48,678 bases of DNA from Pseudomonadota bacterium (lineage in GTDB: Bacteria; Pseudomonadota; Gammaproteobacteria; Steroidobacterales; Steroidobacteraceae). The stretch lies in NCBI GenBank assembly GCA_021785405.1, contig JAJYFF010000016.1, forward strand, positions 1 through 48,678, read 5' to 3'. The translations under genes were made by a program, and so were the position numbers. Below the pieces are notes generated by a model, which ran no database searches, had not been told where the DNA came from, and saw nothing but the letters and a program-made list of their open reading frames with translations. Shown piece after piece: positions 17,408 through 26,700 of this stretch (the first letter of the stretch is position 1; the number at the start of each line of letters is the position of its first letter).

Positions 17408-19495
17408 TCAGCCGACGTCGACGTTGCGCATCGACAGGCGCACGCGCCCCTGGCGGTCGACTTCGAGCACTTTCACGCGGACGACGTCGCCTTCCTTGAG
17501 CTTGTCGCTGACCCGCTCGACCCGTTCCTCCGAGATCTGCGAGATGTGCACCAAGCCATCGCGGCCGGGCAGGATCGTCACGAAGGCGCCGAAATCCATC
17601 AAGCGGGCGACGCGGCCCTCGTAGATCCGGCCGACCTCGACGTCCGCGGTGATCAGTTCGATGCGGCGCTGCGCCTCGCGGCCCGCCGCGCCCTGCACCG
17701 AGGCGATCTTCACCGTGCCGTCGTTCTCGATGTCGATCGAGGTCCCGGTCTCCTCGGTGATCTGCCGGATCACCGCACCGCCCTTGCCGATCACGTCCCG
17801 GATCTTCTCCGGATCGATCTTGAGGGTGATGATCGTCGGCGCCCACTCCGACATGTTCTCGCGCGGCTTCGCGAGCACCTTGTTCATCTCGCCGAGGATG
17901 TGCATCCGGCCGTCGCGCGCCTGATCGAGCGCGACCCGCATGATCTCGCGCGTGATGCTCGTGATCTTGATGTCCATCTGCAGCGCGGTGATCCCGTATT
18001 TCGAGCCGGCGACCTTGAAATCCATGTCGCCGAGGTGGTCCTCGTCGCCGAGGATGTCGGTGAGCACCTGGAATCGATCCCCTTCCTTCACGAGACCCAT
18101 CGCGACGCCGGCCACCGGCGCCGCGATCGGCACGCCCGCGTCCATCAGCGCGAGGCTCGTGCCGCAAACGCTCGCCATCGAACTCGACCCGTTCGATTCG
18201 AGGATCTCGGACACGACGCGGATCACGTACGGAAACTTGTCCATGTCCGGCATCACCGCACGCACGCCGCGCTTCGCGAGGTTGCCGTGACCGATTTCGC
18301 GCCGCTTCGGCGAACCGATCATGCCGGTCTCACCGACGCTGAACGGCGGGAAGTTGTAGTGCAGCATGAACGGCTCCTTGCGCTCGCCGGTCAGGCCGTC
18401 GATGATCTGCGCGTCACGACCGGTGCCGAGCGTCGTGACCACGAGCGCCTGCGTCTCACCGCGCGTGAACAGCGCCGAACCGTGGGTGCGCGCGAGCACG
18501 CCCGTGCGGATCGAGATCGGGCGCACGGTCTTCGTATCGCGCCCGTCGATGCGCGGGTGACCGTCGAGGATGCGCTCGCGCACCAGACGGTACTCGAGAT
18601 TGAAGAACTCCGTGCCAACCTGGTCGGCCGTGAACTTCGGCGCCTCGCCGCCGGCCAGCTTCTCGAGCGCCGCGGCCTTGATCTCGCCGATGCGCGCATG
18701 GCGCTGCTGCTTCTCGGTGATCGCGTACGCTTCGGACAGCGGCTTCTCGACGAGCGCCCGCAGCGCATCCTTCAGTTCCGTGTTCGGCGGCGGCGCGACC
18801 CAATCCCATTTCGGCTTGCCGGCCGCGGCGGCGAGTTCGTGGATCGCCTTGATCGCCGTCTGCATCTGTTCGTGGCCGAACATCACGGCCCCGAGCATCA
18901 CGTCCTCCGGCAAGCCGTCGGCCTCGGACTCGACCATCAGCACGCCTTCCTCGGTCCCGGCGACGACCAGGTCGAGCTGCGAATCCCGCAACTGGGTCGC
19001 GGTCGGATTCAGCACGTATTCACCGCCGATGTAGCCGACGCGCGCGGCGCCGATCGGCCCGAGGAACGGCATCCCGGAAATCGCGAGCGCCGCGGACGCG
19101 CCGATCAGCGACGCGATGTCGGGATCCACTTCCGAATTCACCGACAAAACCGACGCGACGACCTGCACCTCGTTGGTGAAGCCTTCCGGAAACAGCGGCC
19201 GGATCGGTCGGTCGATCAATCGCGACGTGAGCGTCTCTTTCTCGCTCGGACGACCTTCGCGCTTGAAGAAGCCGCCCGGTATCCGACCGGCCGCGTAGGT
19301 CTTTTCCTGATAGTTCACCGTCAGCGGGAAGAAATCGCGGCCCGGAATGGCCTTCTTCGCACCGACCGCGGTGACCAGCACCACCGTTTCGCTCATCGTG
19401 ACGAGCACCGCGCCGTCCGCCTGGCGTGCGAGTTCGCCGGTCTCTATCGTGACCGTGTGGTCTCCATACTGAAAGCTTTTCTTGGTAGCGCTCAC
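17408..19495 (-). CDS. pnp: Polynucleotide phosphorylase
   Basis: 3'-5' phosphorolytic exoribonuclease, a homotrimer and degradosome component, 695 residues (E. coli 711). Two RNase PH domains are visible: the first with [21 protein letters not shown], the second with [28 protein letters not shown] and [13 protein letters not shown]. Next come a KH domain ([15 protein letters not shown]) and a C-terminal S1 domain ending [12 protein letters not shown]. No ATG lies near the expected N-terminus. The GTG at 19495 gives [20 protein letters not shown] and has CAGGGGG about 8 nt upstream, so I chose it. It lies 83 bp after rpsO, the conserved order. Confidence 0.96.
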
Positions 19496-19578: not shown

Positions 19579-19848
19579 CTAGCGGCGCAAGCCGAGCCGC
19601 TCTACGATTTCGGCGTACTTCGCCGGCGTCGTGCTCTTCAGGTAGTCGAGGAGCTTGCGGCGCTGGTTCACCATCTTCAACAGACCGCGGCGGGACGCGT
19701 GGTCCGCCTTGTGCGTCTGGAAGTGCTGGCCGAGACCATTGATACGCTCCGAAAGCAGCGCGATTTGTACTTCTGGCGATCCGGTGTCGTGCGCGGCGCG
19801 TTGGAACTTGGCGACGATACCGTTCTTGTCCGTTGACGTCATAGGCAT
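19579..19848 (-). CDS. rpsO: 30S ribosomal protein S15
   Basis: An 89-residue S15 primary 16S rRNA-binding protein with the family sequence throughout ([49 protein letters not shown] end). The first ATG (19848) gives [13 protein letters not shown] two codons later is also possible. The gene has its own promoter between truB and itself and is followed by pnp, as in E. coli. In E. coli S15 represses its own translation through a pseudoknot in the leader. The 48-nt leader here is not obviously the same structure. Confidence 0.97.
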
Positions 19849-19895: not shown

Positions 19896-19924
19896 ATTGT
19901 ACCCGTCGGGCGGCTCGCCCTCAA
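19896..19924 (-). promoter_or_regulatory. rpsO-pnp promoter
   Basis: On the minus strand TTGAGG (19919-19924), a 17-bp spacer and TACAAT (19896-19901) are followed by GCGCGGC. This is the best complete sigma-70 match in the window. The -35 box overlaps the truB stop codon. The start point near 19889 would give a leader of about 40 nt. The GC-rich discriminator is as expected for a ribosomal-protein promoter under stringent control. Confidence 0.65.
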
Positions 19925-20820
19925 GCGCGATTCGCAGCGGCGGCAATCAACCGCAGCGGCGCCAGTCGACCTCCCTCGCGAATTTCACCGAGGCCGAAAA
20001 ACCCCATATCTTCCGAATACATACGAACCACGCCCGACGCGTCCTGCGCGAGCTCGACGGCACGCCCCTGGCGCAATGCGGCAACCACGGTCGCCGACAG
20101 CTCGAGCCGCGGCACCGACTGCAGCGCCGCGTCCACCGGCAGCAGCGTGCGGCGCCGCTCCCCGAGGTCCAGCGATTCGAGCGCCTCGAAGCCGCGCAGC
20201 GGTTGATCCACGAACGGCGCAACTCCAGTGCGCCGCAGTGCGCACAGATGGGCGATCGTGTCGAGCGTCGCCGCGATATCCTCGGCGAGCACGCGGATGT
20301 AAGCGCCTTTCGAGCAGCGCACCGAGAACCGCAGGTCCGGCGCCTGATAGCCGAGCAAGCGCAACTCGTGGATCTCGATGCGTCGCGCTGCGCGTTCGCG
20401 CGTCTCGCCGGCGCGCGCATATTCGTACAGCGGTCGTCCCGCCTGTTTGATCGCCGAATGCATCGGGGGCACTTGCTGGTAGTCGCGCGGGAACGCCGCG
20501 ATCGCGGCCTCGAGATCGGCCTCGGACCAATCCGGGAGCGCGCGCCGTTCGATCACCGGCGACTCCCGGTCGGCGCTCGCGGTGCGCTCGCCGAGCCGGG
20601 CCGTGACCTCGTACGACTTGTCCGCGGCGAGCAGGCCCGCGGCGAACTTCGTGGCCTCGCCGAAGCAGATCGGCAGCATGCCCTCGGCGAGCGGGTCGAG
20701 CGAACCGGTGTGACCGGCCTTCGCGGCCGCGAACAGCCGCTTCGCGCGGGCGACCGCCGCGGCCGAACTCAGCCCGAGCGGTTTGTCGAGCAACAGGATT
20801 CCGTGGACCTCGGCCGTCAT
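19921..20820 (-). CDS. truB: tRNA pseudouridine-55 synthase
   Basis: Makes pseudouridine 55 in the T-loop of tRNAs. The 299-residue product begins GILLLDKPLGLSS. The catalytic motif GHTGSLDPLAEGMLP has the nucleophilic Asp at 42, so this enzyme is intact, unlike the RluB-like protein in this window. The thumb region follows (YQQVPPMHSAIKQAG) and then SVRCSKGAYIRVLAEDI. A C-terminal PUA-like domain lies at about 245-295. Its ATG overlaps the rbfA stop (TGATG), indicating coupling within the rimP-nusA-infB-rbfA-truB operon. Confidence 0.96.
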   Translation of the reverse strand: MTAEVHGILLLDKPLGLSSAAAVARAKRLFAAAKAGHTGSLDPLAEGMLPICFGEATKFAAGLLAADKSYEVTARLGERTASADRESPVIERRALPDWSEADLEAAIAAFPRDYQQVPPMHSAIKQAGRPLYEYARAGETRERAARRIEIHELRLLGYQAPDLRFSVRCSKGAYIRVLAEDIAATLDTIAHLCALRRTGVAPFVDQPLRGFEALESLDLGERRRTLLPVDAALQSVPRLELSATVVAALRQGRAVELAQDASGVVRMYSEDMGFFGLGEIREGGRLAPLRLIAAAANRA

Positions 20821-21191
20821 CAGCCGTTCGAACCGGGATCGTCCGGCTCGTTCGCCTCCTCGATCAGACGGGTGAGGCGCACGCCCCGCTCGATCGACTC
20901 GTCGATCTCGAACGTCAGCGTCGGCGCCTGGCGGATTTCGAGCGCGCGGGACAGCGCATTGCGCAGGAAACCCGCCGCGCTCTCGAGTCCCTGTTGCACC
21001 TTCGGATCCGGCCCCTCGTGCCCGAACACGAGGTAGTAGACCTTCGCGGTCCGCAGGTCGCCGCCGACCTCGACCTCGGTGATCGTCACGTTGCCGATGC
21101 GCACGTCCTTGACGTCACGCCGCAGCGTGTCGGTGAGCACCCGCTGGATCTGCGCCGCGAGTCGCTTCGCGCGCGGATTGTCCTTCGCCAT
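20820..21191 (-). CDS. rbfA: Ribosome-binding factor A
   Basis: A 123-residue KH-fold 30S maturation factor needed for 16S rRNA 5'-end processing and cold growth. Sequence signatures are RAKRLAAQIQRVLTDTLRRDVKD at the N-terminus, VTITEVEVGGDLRTAKVYY in the middle, and APTLTFEIDESIERG followed by the Asp/Glu-rich C-terminal tail. It lies 28 bp after infB and overlaps truB by one base, the conserved gammaproteobacterial order. Nothing unusual is seen. Confidence 0.96.
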   Translation of the reverse strand: MAKDNPRAKRLAAQIQRVLTDTLRRDVKDVRIGNVTITEVEVGGDLRTAKVYYLVFGHEGPDPKVQQGLESAAGFLRNALSRALEIRQAPTLTFEIDESIERGVRLTRLIEEANEPDDPGSNG

Positions 21192-21219: not shown

Positions 21220-23733
21220 TCACAGCGCGCGCGCCACCTCGACCCGCGAGTAACACTCGATCTGGTCGCCCTCGCGGACGTCGTTGTAGTTCTTCACGCC
21301 GATGCCGCACTCGGTGCCCGCGCGAACCTCGCCGACGTCGTCCTTGAAGCGCCGCAGCGATTCGAGCGCGCCTTCGAAGATGACCACGTTGTCGCGCAGC
21401 ACCCGGATCGGGAAATTGCGCCGCACGTAGCCGTCGATCACCATGCAGCCGGCGACCGTGCCGAACTTGCTCGAACGGAACACGCTGCGAACCTCGGCCA
21501 AGCCGACGATCTGCTCCTTCACCTCCGGCGCGAGCAAGCCGGTCAGCACCGCGCGCACGTCGTCGATCGCTTCGTAGATCACGCTGTAGTAGCGGACGTC
21601 GACGCCGTGCTCCTTGATCGCGGCGCGAGCCGCCGCGTCGCCGCGCACGTTGAACGCGATGATCTGCGCCTTCGACGCCGCGGCGAGCGTGACGTCCGAC
21701 TCGGTGATCCCGCCGACGCCGGCGGCGATCACGTTCACGGCGACCTCGGACGTGGACAGGCCGACCAACGCGTCGCGCAGCGCCTCGACGCTGCCCTGCA
21801 CGTCCGCCTTCACCACCACCGGCACGATGCTCGCCTTCGCCTCGCCCATCGTCGACAGCACGTCCTGCATGCTCGCGCTCTGCTTCGCGAGCTTCACGTC
21901 GCGGGACTTCGTCTGCCGATGCAGCGCGACTTCCCGCGCCTTGCGCTCGCTCTCGACGACGAGCAGTTCGTCACCCGCGTTCGGCGCCGCGGACAGGCCG
22001 AGCACGACGACCGGCGTCGCCGGGCCGGCGGTCTCGACCGGACGGCCCGCCTCGTCGAACAGCGCACGCACGCGCCCGAACTCCTGGCCGACCAGCACGG
22101 GATCGCCGAGCTTGAGCGTGCCGCGCAACACCAGCACCGTCGCGACCGGACCGCGGCCCTTCTCGATGCTCGATTCGATCACGTAGCCGGCCGCGAAGCC
22201 GTCGACGGGCGCCGTCAATTCCAGCACTTCGGCCTGCAGCAGGAGGCTCTCGAGGAGCTGTTCGACGCCCTGGCCGGTGCGAGCCGACACCGGGACGAAG
22301 ATGTTCTCGCCGCCCCATTCCTCGGGAATCACGCCGTATTTCGTCAACTCCTGCTTCACGTGTTCCGGATCCGCCTCCGGCTTGTCGATCTTGTTCAGCG
22401 CAACGACGATCGGCACCTTCGCCGCCTTCGCGTGCTGGATCGCCTCGATCGTCTGCGGCATCACGCCGTCGTCGGCCGCGACGACCAGGATCACGATGTC
22501 GGTCACCTGCGCGCCGCGTGCGCGCATCGAGGTGAAGGCGGCGTGGCCCGGCGTGTCGAGGAACGTGACCACGCCCTTCGGCGTCTCGACGTGGTACGCG
22601 CCGATGTGTTGCGTGATCCCGCCCGCCTCGCCGGCCGCGACCTTGGTGCGCCGGATGTAGTCGAGCAATGACGTCTTGCCGTGGTCGACGTGTCCCATCA
22701 CCGTCACGACCGGAGGCCGCGGCAGCATGGCGAACGTGCCCTGCTGCCCGCTCTGCAGGTCGGACTCGATCGCGTTCTCGTTGCGCAAGACCGGCTTGTG
22801 GCCCATCTCCTCGACGACGAGCACCGCGACGTCCTGATCGATCGTCTGATTGATCGTCGCCATCACGCCCATGGTCATCAGCACCTTGATGACCTCGGTC
22901 GCCTTCACCGCCATCTTCTGCGCGAGTTCCGCGACCGTCATCGCCTCGCCGACCGGCACTTCGCGCACGACCCGGGCGGTCGGCATCTCGAATCCATGCT
23001 TCGCGTCCGAATCGCCGAGGGTGCGCCGGCGCGTGTCCCGCGATTTCTTCTTCTTGTGCCGCGAACTCACGTCGCCGACGATGTGCAGTTCCTGCCGGCC
23101 GTAGCGCGTCGCCCGGTCGTCGTTCGCGTCGCGCACGGGCGGCTTCGGCGGCACGGGCTTCGTGGCCGCCGTCTTGCGCTCGCGTTCCGCGGCCTCGCGT
23201 GCGGCGGTCTCGGCCTGCCGGCGCGCCTCTTCCTCGGCGGAGCGCTGACGCGCTTCCTCGTCCGAGCGCCGGCGGCTCTCCTCTTCCTGGCGCTCGCGAT
23301 CGAGCCGCTCGCGCTCGCGTCGCTCCTGCTCCTCGCGCTCGAGCGCGGCGCGTGCCTGCTCCTCGGACTCGCGCTGCCGGTCGACCTCTTCCTGCTGCAA
23401 ACGCGCCTGGTCCTCGAGGACCTCGCGTTTCACGTAGGTGCGCTTGCTGCGCACTTCGACGTTCACCGTGCGGGCACGGCCCTGGGAACTCGCGAGCCTG
23501 AGCTCGGACTGCGACTTGCGCCGCAACGTGATCTTGCGCGGCGCCGCGTCGCCCTTCGCATCGTCTCGTCCGTGCGTGCGCCGAAGGTGCGTCAGCAGCT
23601 CGTGCTTCGCCTCCTCGCTGATGATTCCGTCCGGTCCGTCCACCTGGATGCCCGCCTGACCGAGCTGCTGCAGCAGTCGGTCGACCGGGACCTTCAGGAC
23701 TTCGGCGAATTGTGAAACCGTGACATCGGCCAT
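21220..23733 (-). CDS. infB: Translation initiation factor IF-2
   Basis: GTPase that delivers initiator tRNA to the 30S subunit, 837 residues. The N-terminal IF2_N domain is at 1-50 ([23 protein letters not shown]). A long charged Glu/Arg/Ala-rich coiled region lies at about 100-205. A second IF2_N-like domain lies at about 262-310 ([22 protein letters not shown]). The G domain has G1 [12 protein letters not shown] near 347, DTPGHAAF and NKIDKPEA, then the C1/C2 domains. Ends [10 protein letters not shown]. Start ATG 23733 is 10 bp after nusA. Confidence 0.97.
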
Positions 23734-23743
23734 CGTCGCGCTC

Positions 23744-25255
23744 CTAAACCTTCGCCTGTTCGGTGGTCGCGTCCTGCTCGAACCAGTGCTTGCGCGCCTC
23801 CATGATCAGTTCCGCCGCCGTCTTCTCGTCGACGCCGCCGATCTCGACGAGCTCGTCGACCGCGAGGTCCGCGAGGTCATCGCGCGTCCGAACGCCCTTC
23901 GCGGCGAGCGCCGCCGCGAGTTCCCGGCCCGTGAGCTCGATCAGCTCCGGAGTCGGCGTCCCGTCCGTCGCGGATTCCTCGCTCGCGATCGCCTGCGTGA
24001 GCAGCACGTCGCGGGCGCGGGTGCGCAACTCCTTCACGATCTCCTCGTCGAACTCCTCGATGCTGTTGAGTTCGCTCGCCGGCACGTACGCGATCTCCTC
24101 GATCGTCGAGAACCCTTCCTGCACCAGGATCGTCGCGACGTCCGCATCGACGTCGAGCTGCTTCATGAAGGTCTCGCGCAAGGTCTGCGACTCGGTCTCG
24201 CTCTTCGCCTCGGCCTGCGACTCGCTCATCACGTTGAGTTCCCAGCCGGTGAGCTCGCTCGCGAGACGGATGTTCTGCCCGCCGCGGCCGATCGCCTGCG
24301 ACAGCTTGTCCTCGGCGACCGCGATGTCCATCGCATGCGCATCCTCGTCGACGACGATCGAGGTGACCTCGGCCGGCGCCATCGCGTTGATGACGAACTG
24401 CGCGGGATTCTCGTCGTACGGGATGATGTCGACGCGCTCGCCGGCGATCTCGTTGGACACCGCTTGCACGCGCGAGCCGCGCATGCCGACGCACGCGCCG
24501 ACCGGATCGATGCGCGGATCGTTGCTGCGCACCGCGATCTTCGCGCGCACGCCCGGATCGCGCGCCGCCGCGAGGATGTTGATCAGGCCCTGTCCGACTT
24601 CCGGGACCTCGAGCTTGAACAACTCGACGAGGAACTCCGGTGCAGTGCGCGACATGAACAGCTGCGGTCCGCGCGGCTCCGAACGCACTTCCTTCAGGTA
24701 CGCCTTGATGCGGTCCTGGGACCGCACGGGTTCGCGCGGGATCATCTCCTCGCGCGGGATGAAGCCTTCCGCGTTCGAGCCGAGGTCGACGAACACCCCG
24801 TTCCGGTCGACCCGCTTGACGATTCCGCTGACCAGCGTGCCGGCCCGATCCCGGTAGGCATCGACGACCTGGGCGCGCTCGGCTTCGCGCACCTTCTGCA
24901 CGATCACCTGTTTCGCCGTTTGCGCGAGGATCCGGCCGAACGGAACCGATTCCATCGGTTGCTCGACGAAATCGCCCGGCGCCGCGTCGGCGTCCAGGTC
25001 GTGTGCGTCCTCGAGCCGCAGTTCGCGCTCCGGCACCTCGAGCTCGGTCGAATCGTCCGCGAACACCTTCCAGCGGCGGAACGTGTCGTAATCGCCGGTC
25101 TTGCGGTTGATCGCGACCCGAACGTCGAGTTCCTCGCCGTGCTTCTTGCGGGTCGCCGACGCGAGCGCCGCCTCGAGCGCTTCGAAGATGATTTCCTTGT
25201 CGACGCCCTTCTCGTTGGAGACCGCGTCGACGGCCATCAAGATCTCTTTGTTCAT
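23744..25255 (-). CDS. nusA: Transcription termination/antitermination factor NusA
   Basis: A 503-residue NusA that binds RNA polymerase and nascent RNA and modulates pausing, intrinsic termination and antitermination. The N-terminal RNAP-binding domain spans 1-130, then S1 ([21 protein letters not shown]), KH1 and KH2 ([35 protein letters not shown]). Two acidic AR repeats lie at about 365-420 and 435-495, as in E. coli. The start ATG 25255 ([18 protein letters not shown]) is canonical. It follows rimP after 59 bp. Given the terminator-like hairpins in the rimP leader, NusA is a natural candidate for control of its own operon. Confidence 0.97.
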
Positions 25256-25314: not shown

Positions 25315-25770
25315 TCACGCCGGCCGCAGTCTCGCTTTCTGAATCCGATCGAACGGCAAGACGAACCCTCGCCCATCGACATCGACCTCGATCGCCTCGC
25401 CGCCGACCGCGCGCAGCACCCCGACGAAGCGGCGGCGCCCGTCGAGCGGCAACTTCAGCTCCACGAACACGCGTTCGCCGACGAAGCGCTCGAAATGCGC
25501 CGGAGTGCGCAGTACCCGATCCAGGCCGGGCGAAGACACCTCGAGGGTGTACTGCCCGGGAATCGGGTCCGTGCGGTCCAGCACGGCGCTGACCGCGTCG
25601 CTCACCCGTGCGCAATCGTCGACCGTGACCGAGCCGCCCTCGCCTGCTGCGCGGTCGATGAACACCCGCAGCACACCGCCGCGACCGGCGCGAGCGAACT
25701 CCACGTCGACCAGTTCGAAATGCAGCGCGGCGACCGTCGGTTCCAACAAGCGCACAAGGTCGTTGCGCAT
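25315..25770 (-). CDS. rimP: Ribosome maturation factor RimP
   Basis: A 151-residue 30S assembly factor, first gene of the nusA-infB operon. Signatures are [21 protein letters not shown] at the N-terminus, [25 protein letters not shown] and the core [22 protein letters not shown]-terminal SH3-like domain follows (about 95-150). The start ATG 25770 has GAAGGG 9 nt upstream; longer in-frame extensions pass through the leader hairpins and are rejected. The U-run of the nearest hairpin ends only about 20 nt before this ATG. Confidence 0.95.
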
Positions 25771-25791
25771 CGTCAAGATCCCTTCGCGGAC

Positions 25792-25815
25792 AAAAAAGGG
25801 GACCATCGGCCCCCT
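25792..25815 (-). terminator. Second terminator-like hairpin in the rimP leader
   Basis: In the minus-strand RNA, GGGGGCC and GGUCCCC pair (7 bp including one G-U) around the loop GAU and are followed by six U. This is a complete intrinsic-terminator shape. It lies downstream of the only promoter I see and 20 nt before rimP, so it must be read through or overridden for operon expression. Its 5' arm can also pair with the 5' arm of the first hairpin, giving a possible antiterminator. Confidence 0.65.
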
Positions 25816-25821
25816 GTAATG

Positions 25822-25843
25822 AAAAAGCCCCGTCATCGGGGCT
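25822..25843 (-). terminator. First terminator-like hairpin in the rimP leader
   Basis: In the minus-strand RNA, AGCCCCG and CGGGGCU form a perfect 7-bp stem with loop AUGA, followed by UUUUC. It is only about 7 nt upstream of the second hairpin. In the opposite direction the stem is followed by CTTTCC, a weaker tail. Confidence 0.65.
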
Positions 25844-25866
25844 CTTTCCACCAAAGCGCGTTCATT

Positions 25867-25891
25867 CGAACGGCCCCCGGGAGGCCGTTCG
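25867..25891 (-). other. 9-bp leader hairpin upstream of the tandem terminators
   Basis: CGAACGGCC (25867-25875) and GGCCGTTCG (25883-25891) form a perfect 9-bp inverted repeat with a 7-nt loop. It has no U-run. It lies in the rimP leader between the promoter and the two terminator-like hairpins and could act as a pause or binding site. Confidence 0.6.
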
Positions 25892-25938
25892 CGAGGGCGT
25901 CGCGTCCGATCGCCAACCGTCCCCGCCGAACACCACAA

Positions 25939-25966
25939 GTATAGTGTGCGACGGTCGCCTGGTAAA
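25939..25966 (-). promoter_or_regulatory. Promoter of the rimP-nusA-infB operon
   Basis: On the minus strand TTTACC (25961-25966), a 16-bp spacer and TATACT (25939-25944) form a plausible sigma-70 promoter. Transcription would begin near 25932, giving a structured leader of about 160 nt before rimP. It lies about 30 bp beyond the terminator of the RRM gene, so the operon appears to be insulated from upstream transcription. Confidence 0.5.
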
Positions 25967-25995: not shown

Positions 25996-26032
25996 CAAAA
26001 AAAGCCGGGACCACGAATCGCGATCCCGGCTC
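25996..26032 (-). terminator. Intrinsic terminator of the RRM gene
   Basis: On the minus strand AGCCGGGA and TCCCGGCT form an 8-bp stem around a loop of about 13 nt, followed by a run of seven T. It starts about 30 bp after the stop codon of the RNA-binding protein gene. This is the clearest intrinsic terminator in the window. Confidence 0.8.
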
Positions 26033-26061
26033 TTCGGGAACCCGTCAGTTCCCGCCGGTAC

Positions 26062-26358
<297 letters not shown>

Positions 26359-26700
26359 TGAAAAGAACCCTAGCACTTTGGAAAGACCACCGGCGGAACG
26401 TCCATGCAGCCGGTTCGGCTCGCTCGGAACACCCGCCACCTCGGTCGAGGAGACCTGCTTTGTGGGTGATGGCCGAACGGGACGGTGAGTCCACGCGTCG
26501 GCCAGCCACGATACAAATTAGATATTCGCAACCGACCGGGAGTGTACACGATCCGCAATCGCTTGAAAATCAGAATATTTATCGTTTTCGCCGGGCGGAT
26601 CTGGCGCCGCAACATCGGTAGCCGACGCACCGCCGCACTGCCCGCTGGCGGACGATTTGGGTATCCTAGTGGGCTTTCGCTCCGCCGAGACCCGCCACCC
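26359..26700. other. 342-bp divergent intergenic region between the RRM and icd genes
   Basis: No gene is supported here. The part nearest the RRM gene would be its long 5' leader. An AT-rich patch at about 26510-26590, unusual for this DNA, holds the RRM promoter candidate (separate entry). On the plus strand a TATCCT at 26662-26667 lies 33 bp before the isocitrate dehydrogenase ATG, without a convincing -35. I see no conserved small ORF or tRNA. Confidence 0.6.
26541..26569 (-). promoter_or_regulatory. Candidate promoter of the RRM gene
   Basis: On the minus strand TTTTCA (26564-26569), a 17-bp spacer and TACACT (26541-26546) lie in an AT-rich patch. The predicted start near 26534 gives a leader of about 175 nt to the ATG at 26358. 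A long leader fits a cold-responsive RNA-binding protein gene, but no specific thermosensor fold was identified by eye. Confidence 0.4.

Follow-up and report, generated by a model that had tools for sequence, protein, structure and literature searches.

The closest described relative of the leader analysed here is the rimP-leader of Naville and Gautheret (2010), whose account gives most species a distal terminator of the GGGc..gCCC type and adds that several Gammaproteobacteria carry another terminator in tandem with it ahead of rimP, built on the inverse motif, CCCg..cGGG; NusA is proposed there as the ligand (PMC2965389). In E. coli, the terminators t1 and t2 have been described upstream of rimP, and mutants in which NusA terminates less are reported to have raised transcript levels (PMC6511841). 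A fusion of the rimP 5' UTR and open reading frame is reported to go down, not up, in an E. coli rho mutant (PMC7815308), an observation that concerns Rho and not intrinsic termination. Autoregulation of B. subtilis nusA through NusA-stimulated termination in its leader is summarized in a review (PMC12288461), and in S. agalactiae leader termination was detected by RNA-seq, the authors proposing the same NusA autoregulation (PMC4448216).

Our analysis covers a window of 48,678 nucleotides, a single stretch of one contig from a member of the Steroidobacteraceae, in which the leader adjoins rimP, by Pfam identities the first gene of rimP-nusA-infB (Table 1). An earlier note, made from the letters of this DNA, had described a promoter, a 9-bp hairpin and two stem-loops with U-runs before rimP. 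All of these could be located on the minus strand: the promoter as TTTACC-N17-TATACT, the hairpin, here called P1, exactly as placed, and the two stem-loops, T1 and T2, within a few bases of the positions proposed. Similar -35 and -10 elements, mostly TTTAC.../TATAAT, are visible by eye in most close relatives. The U-run of T2 consists of six U (25797-25792), the first of which is paired, and lies 21 nt from the rimP ATG. Farther upstream, the terminator of the preceding gene, which encodes a small RRM protein, separates that gene from the rimP transcription unit; a script found a strong hairpin at the same place in 7 of the 15 other close leaders (L082-L085, L089, L001, L003). The same RRM gene end (GSRGPKRW-stop) is seen by eye at this place in several close relatives.

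Table 1. Features of the rimP leader and of the genes around it, in window coordinates.
Feature	Position	Strand	Description
Gene for small RRM RNA-binding protein	26062-26439	-	RRM by Pfam; Gly-rich tail; directly upstream of rimP leader
Intrinsic terminator of RRM-protein gene	25999..26035	-	Hairpin -27.6 kcal/mol, U-run
Sigma-70-type promoter TTTACC-N17-TATACT	25938..25966	-	-35 TTTACC 25966-25961; -10 TATACT 25943-25938; spacer 17
Hairpin P1	25867..25891	-	At least 9 bp, exact; without U-run
T1, upstream intrinsic terminator	25822..25847	-	CCCC..GGGG type; AAAGAGCCCCG-AUGA-CGGGGCUUUUU, -16.5 kcal/mol
T2, downstream intrinsic terminator	25792..25815	-	GGGGCC..GGTCCCC type; hairpin 25815-25797, AGGGGGCC-GAU-GGUCCCCU, -13.4 kcal/mol
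rimP ATG	25770	-	
rimP	25315..25770	-	PF02576, PF17384
nusA (start codon approximate)	23744..25222	-	NusA_N, S1, KH_5
infB	21220..23733	-	IF-2, IF2_N
rbfA	20820..21191	-	PF02033
truB	19921..20820	-	PF01509
rpsO	19579..19848	-	PF00312
pnp (start approximate)	17408..19486	-	RNase_PH, KH, S1

With the tandem form of the rimP-leader, the window shares two serial intrinsic terminators before rimP-nusA-infB, their U-runs and a short distance to the ATG. T2, a distal stem of the GGGc..gCCC type followed by a U-run, is the general rimP-leader hairpin, with the small departure that its GGGG/CCCC core is followed by a G-U pair and then by C-G pairs; the upstream CCCg..cGGG motif corresponds to T1, GCCCCG-AUGA-CGGGGC with a U-tract. 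The same order of promoter, T1 (GCCCCGAUUUAUCGGGG), T2 (GGGCUUUAGGCCC) and rimP is found in the E. coli metY-rimP-nusA-infB leader, which is described as having metY in front and several promoters (PMC6511841), whereas the window has no tRNA in the 600 nt before rimP. The B. subtilis nusA leader, in which intrinsic termination is stimulated by NusA (PMC12288461), is likened here by description. What distinguishes the window from the rimP-leader, besides the G-U pair in T2, is a gap of only 6 nt separating the two terminator hairpins, a P1 of its own and the score obtained with the Rfam model RF01770, whose in-register alignment to the leader reaches 16.9 bits, below the gathering score of 47. 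Judged from the order and pairing of its elements, the architecture matches the rimP-leader although that score is not reached. The leader falls, on the same grounds, into the class published in 2010, a design that other organisms share.

Two covariance models bear on this assignment. At the gathering level, RF01770 recognized only E. coli (102 bits) among 29 distinct loci and none of the 28 others. Several of these 28 carry a clear T1/T2 pair. We built a second model, R1, without the window's own family: of 27 leader fragments we took 21, from 20 class genomes and E. coli, and left out L117, L136, L204, L259, L265 and L273 by judgement as long or aberrant. The top match of R1 within the window is the leader (25846-25792, 38.3 bits, E 1e-6), the second, at 13.3 bits, being T1 on the opposite strand; in the 2.9 Mb genome, the leader is the only match at E<=1 (E 6.4e-5). 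T1 is in register both with R1 and, below threshold, with RF01770. Over 100 family genomes, R1 gave 83 matches at E<=0.05 in 71 genomes. Directly upstream of rimP lie 64 of the 83, including all 57 with E<=5e-4, and the 19 found elsewhere all have E > 5e-4; counted by genome, 64 of the 89 with a located rimP have a match upstream of it at E<=0.05. RF01770 missed the leaders tried outside E. coli, and a more inclusive model, of which R1 is an example, would be of use.

Could the tandem pair have arisen by chance? A loose terminator-pattern scan over 16 kb returned 6 terminator-like sites, T2 among them and T1 not, against 6.8 expected, so that one match by itself is no proof. The whole leader folds better than its shuffles (z -2.89), 1 of 200 of which did as well. 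The comparative test is the decisive one. Counting as a site a hairpin of -7 kcal/mol or below with a U-tract, within 200 nt upstream of rimP, at least two sites are present in 7 of 8 genus leaders, 5 of 8 further close leaders, 61 of 81 family leaders and 64 of 131 class leaders; the antisense strand of the same four sets gives 0, 0, 1 and 0, and dinucleotide shuffling leads one to expect 0.0, 0.3, 7.7 and 3.7. Only one site of the E. coli leader passes this cut-off, its T2, at -6.2 kcal/mol, being too weak. Measured against these controls, the tandem pair is not a chance occurrence. The upstream region was taken up to 600 nt per leader, shorter at contig ends. The further close leaders come from named contigs picked by RimP identity and need not all be of the same genus. 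The family set together with the 8 genus leaders represents 89 of 90 matching genomes (G066, a gene fragment, was left out), and the class set, 30 given loci and 101 others out of 174 matching genomes, leans to better-scoring RimP, some low-scoring entries and one contig-edge leader having been omitted.

The two hairpins are not kept equally. The script detects T2 in every one of the 16 close leaders, that of the window among them, whereas 5 of them have a weak or interrupted T1, or none (L005, L006, L009, L010 and L085, where the script's T1 call is the terminator of the upstream gene), which speaks against a strict need for T1. Nor is either hairpin universal, the T2 motif being present in 67 of 81 family and 91 of 131 class leaders; the matches of the T2 pattern on the antisense strand (6 of 81 and 21 of 131) are probably T1 read backwards. 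The suggestion that the double hairpin is a lineage-specific design has to be given up: the pair is found across the family, the class and E. coli, and was published in 2010.

The 5' arms of T1 (AGCCCC) and T2 (GGGGGC) are complementary in the window (-11.8 kcal/mol), as had been pointed out before together with the proposal of an exclusive antiterminated fold. We compared native arms with arms swapped between species in 108 unique T1/T2 pairs, with a cut-off of 130 nt on T1-T2 spacing. Native arms pair better than swapped ones both in T1 (-13.14 versus -10.66 kcal/mol, p 0.0005, n=108) and in T2 (-12.51 versus -10.10 kcal/mol, p 0.0005, n=108), so that both hairpins are maintained; tables of pair types, built on hairpins selected for pairing, are not independent evidence. 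Unlike the hairpins, the alternative pairings show no covariation in this set, native pairs being no stronger than swapped ones either between 5' arms (-8.33 versus -8.28, p 0.27, n=108) or between 3' arms (-8.61 versus -8.62, p 0.55, n=108), in a test that can tell little where the CCC/GGG cores do not vary. Nor do the 84 tRNA-less leaders that combine T2 with a T1 of the CCC type show any enrichment of an upstream anti-T1 element over shuffles (mean z -0.08, s.e. 0.10). An RNA-switch attenuator, in which the 5' arms of T1 and T2, or their 3' arms, pair to give an exclusive antiterminated fold, could draw on the inverse CCC/GGG motifs, which make such complementarity general, and on the antiterminator to which Naville and Gautheret's account also points for the tandem form (PMC2965389). 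Against it stand these null results, a T1-T2 spacing that varies between 1 and 121 nt in the pairs retained, and the order of synthesis: the T2 5' arm is made only after the T1 U-tract and cannot, for that reason, prevent termination at T1. We consider such a switch quite unlikely; the complementarity is there, and the exclusive fold built upon it finds no backing. The missing covariation of the alternative pairs, the missing anti-T1 enrichment and the order of synthesis together favor a protein factor acting on T1 and T2 over an RNA switch. RNAalifold also offered a pairing between the 5' end of the leader and the stretch that follows T2; we rejected it, since its 3' side is not kept, by eye, in the more distant close relatives.

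What is the relation of T1 to the initiator tRNA? A tRNA-Met(CAT) gene, of initiator type where read, precedes the terminators within 600 nt in E. coli, in 83 of 131 class leaders, in 7 of 81 family leaders and in none of the 16 close leaders; the window's genome has an initiator-type tRNA-Met gene on another contig (C48). It is conceivable that T1 does no more than terminate an initiator-tRNA gene (metY) lying upstream, or is a relic of it, and that rimP is regulated by T2 alone. Consistent with this, the CCC-type hairpin is commoner in class leaders with the tRNA (59 of 83) than in those without (23 of 45, not counting three truncated leaders), it stands without T2, as the sole terminator found, in 27 of the 83 tRNA-bearing class leaders, and some close relatives that lack the tRNA show a decayed T1. 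The same hairpin is common without a tRNA, however, in 63 of 74 family, 7 of 8 genus and 5 of 8 further close leaders, and no tRNA fragment was detected in the window's leader. We regard this explanation as unlikely. Since the hairpin is common without the tRNA and, in the class, more frequent with it, it is plausible that T1 doubles as the terminator of the tRNA, yet in the window's family it is kept without the tRNA. Where T2 is found as well, CCC-type T1 hairpins number 5 of 7 (family) and 31 of 83 (class) with the tRNA and 49 of 74 and 23 of 48 without it, a count in which the requirement for T2 underrates tRNA-bearing leaders with a single hairpin; a stricter CCC pattern counts 2 of the 7 tRNA-bearing family leaders, several stems there beginning with GGGCCC, which that pattern excludes. 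A comparison of tRNA-bearing with tRNA-less genomes offers a way to test what T1 does.

Traces of the tRNA were sought in the 138 leaders without a tRNA call. Five contain an fMet-like fragment at E<=0.01 (reversed-query control, 0), three of which begin at the first available base (L286, L121, L238) and are perhaps truncated genes, and a short tRNA 3'-end motif occurs in 7 of the 138 (6 class, 1 family). Four leaders have only an initiator-tRNA 3' fragment (CCCCCGCTACC) upstream of the rimP-leader terminators; no tRNA is called there by ARAGORN (L232, L225) or by Rfam (L021, L022), and these fragments look as if metY had decayed in place.

Alignment of close relatives provides information on P1. 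Nine of the 16 close leaders were aligned (A1; L002 stands for L082), with L084, L085, L086, L005, L006, L009 and L010 left out as too divergent. P1 has three pairs changed on both sides (for example GC/AU/CG) and 93.8% of its cells paired, whereas T2 hardly varies among the nine and carries little information. The covariation score of the whole structure lies above all 500 shuffles; the count of pairs changed on both sides, four, is equalled by 48 of the 500. From this pattern of changes, P1 is probably a real helix, and perhaps it shapes the folding of T1, or pausing. One may go further and consider the tandem pair as the operon's own regulator, once linked to metY and kept after the tRNA left, with a lineage-specific P1 tuning the response of T1 and T2 to NusA; we put this forward tentatively, as a rather unlikely extension.

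We propose the following model for the leader, which we think likely on the whole: an attenuator of the rimP-leader class, in which a factor, most likely NusA, sets the read-through at T1 and T2. RNA polymerase would start at about 25931, by the rule of thumb of 7 nt past the -10 element, and would meet T1 and then T2 in series before rimP. Read-through of both would yield the operon mRNA, the remainder giving leader RNAs of about 110 and about 140 nt. The fraction reading through would be set by a protein factor, with NusA as the best candidate, rather than by a switch between alternative RNA folds, and the outcome would be a negative feedback in which more NusA leads to more termination and hence to less nusA mRNA. 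We infer that termination takes place at both sites in vivo and is under NusA control. Of the earlier proposal that expression of the operon is set by attenuation, the attenuation-type leader with the t1/t2 architecture of E. coli stands, and its lineage-specific and antiterminator-switch parts find no support. Knowledge of the attenuator system itself is unchanged; what the analysis adds is that nusA, infB and their neighbors appear to lie behind two terminators in a lineage for which the relatives compared are mostly metagenome-assembled.

An alternative use of the terminated transcripts has to be weighed. The pair had also been suggested to end a short leader RNA, which is plausible, the rimP leader being listed with the attenuator-derived small RNAs that associate with ProQ (PMC5391140). 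That the leader mainly yields a stable small RNA acting elsewhere, with control of the operon secondary, we hold to be highly improbable: the conserved part is the terminator pair, and the sequence upstream of T1 differs, by eye, between lineages. Attenuation of rimP-nusA-infB remains the reading that we prefer.

Near the predicted transcription start, the stretch TCGGCGGGG (25937-25900, minus strand) is conserved in close relatives, where it follows a GC-rich segment; as a guess, this could mean growth-rate (ppGpp/DksA) control of the promoter. Elsewhere, a sequence like AAGTG(C/A)TTGATTT recurs, by eye, shortly before T1 in the family leaders L090, L094, L095, L098, L100, L102 and L144.
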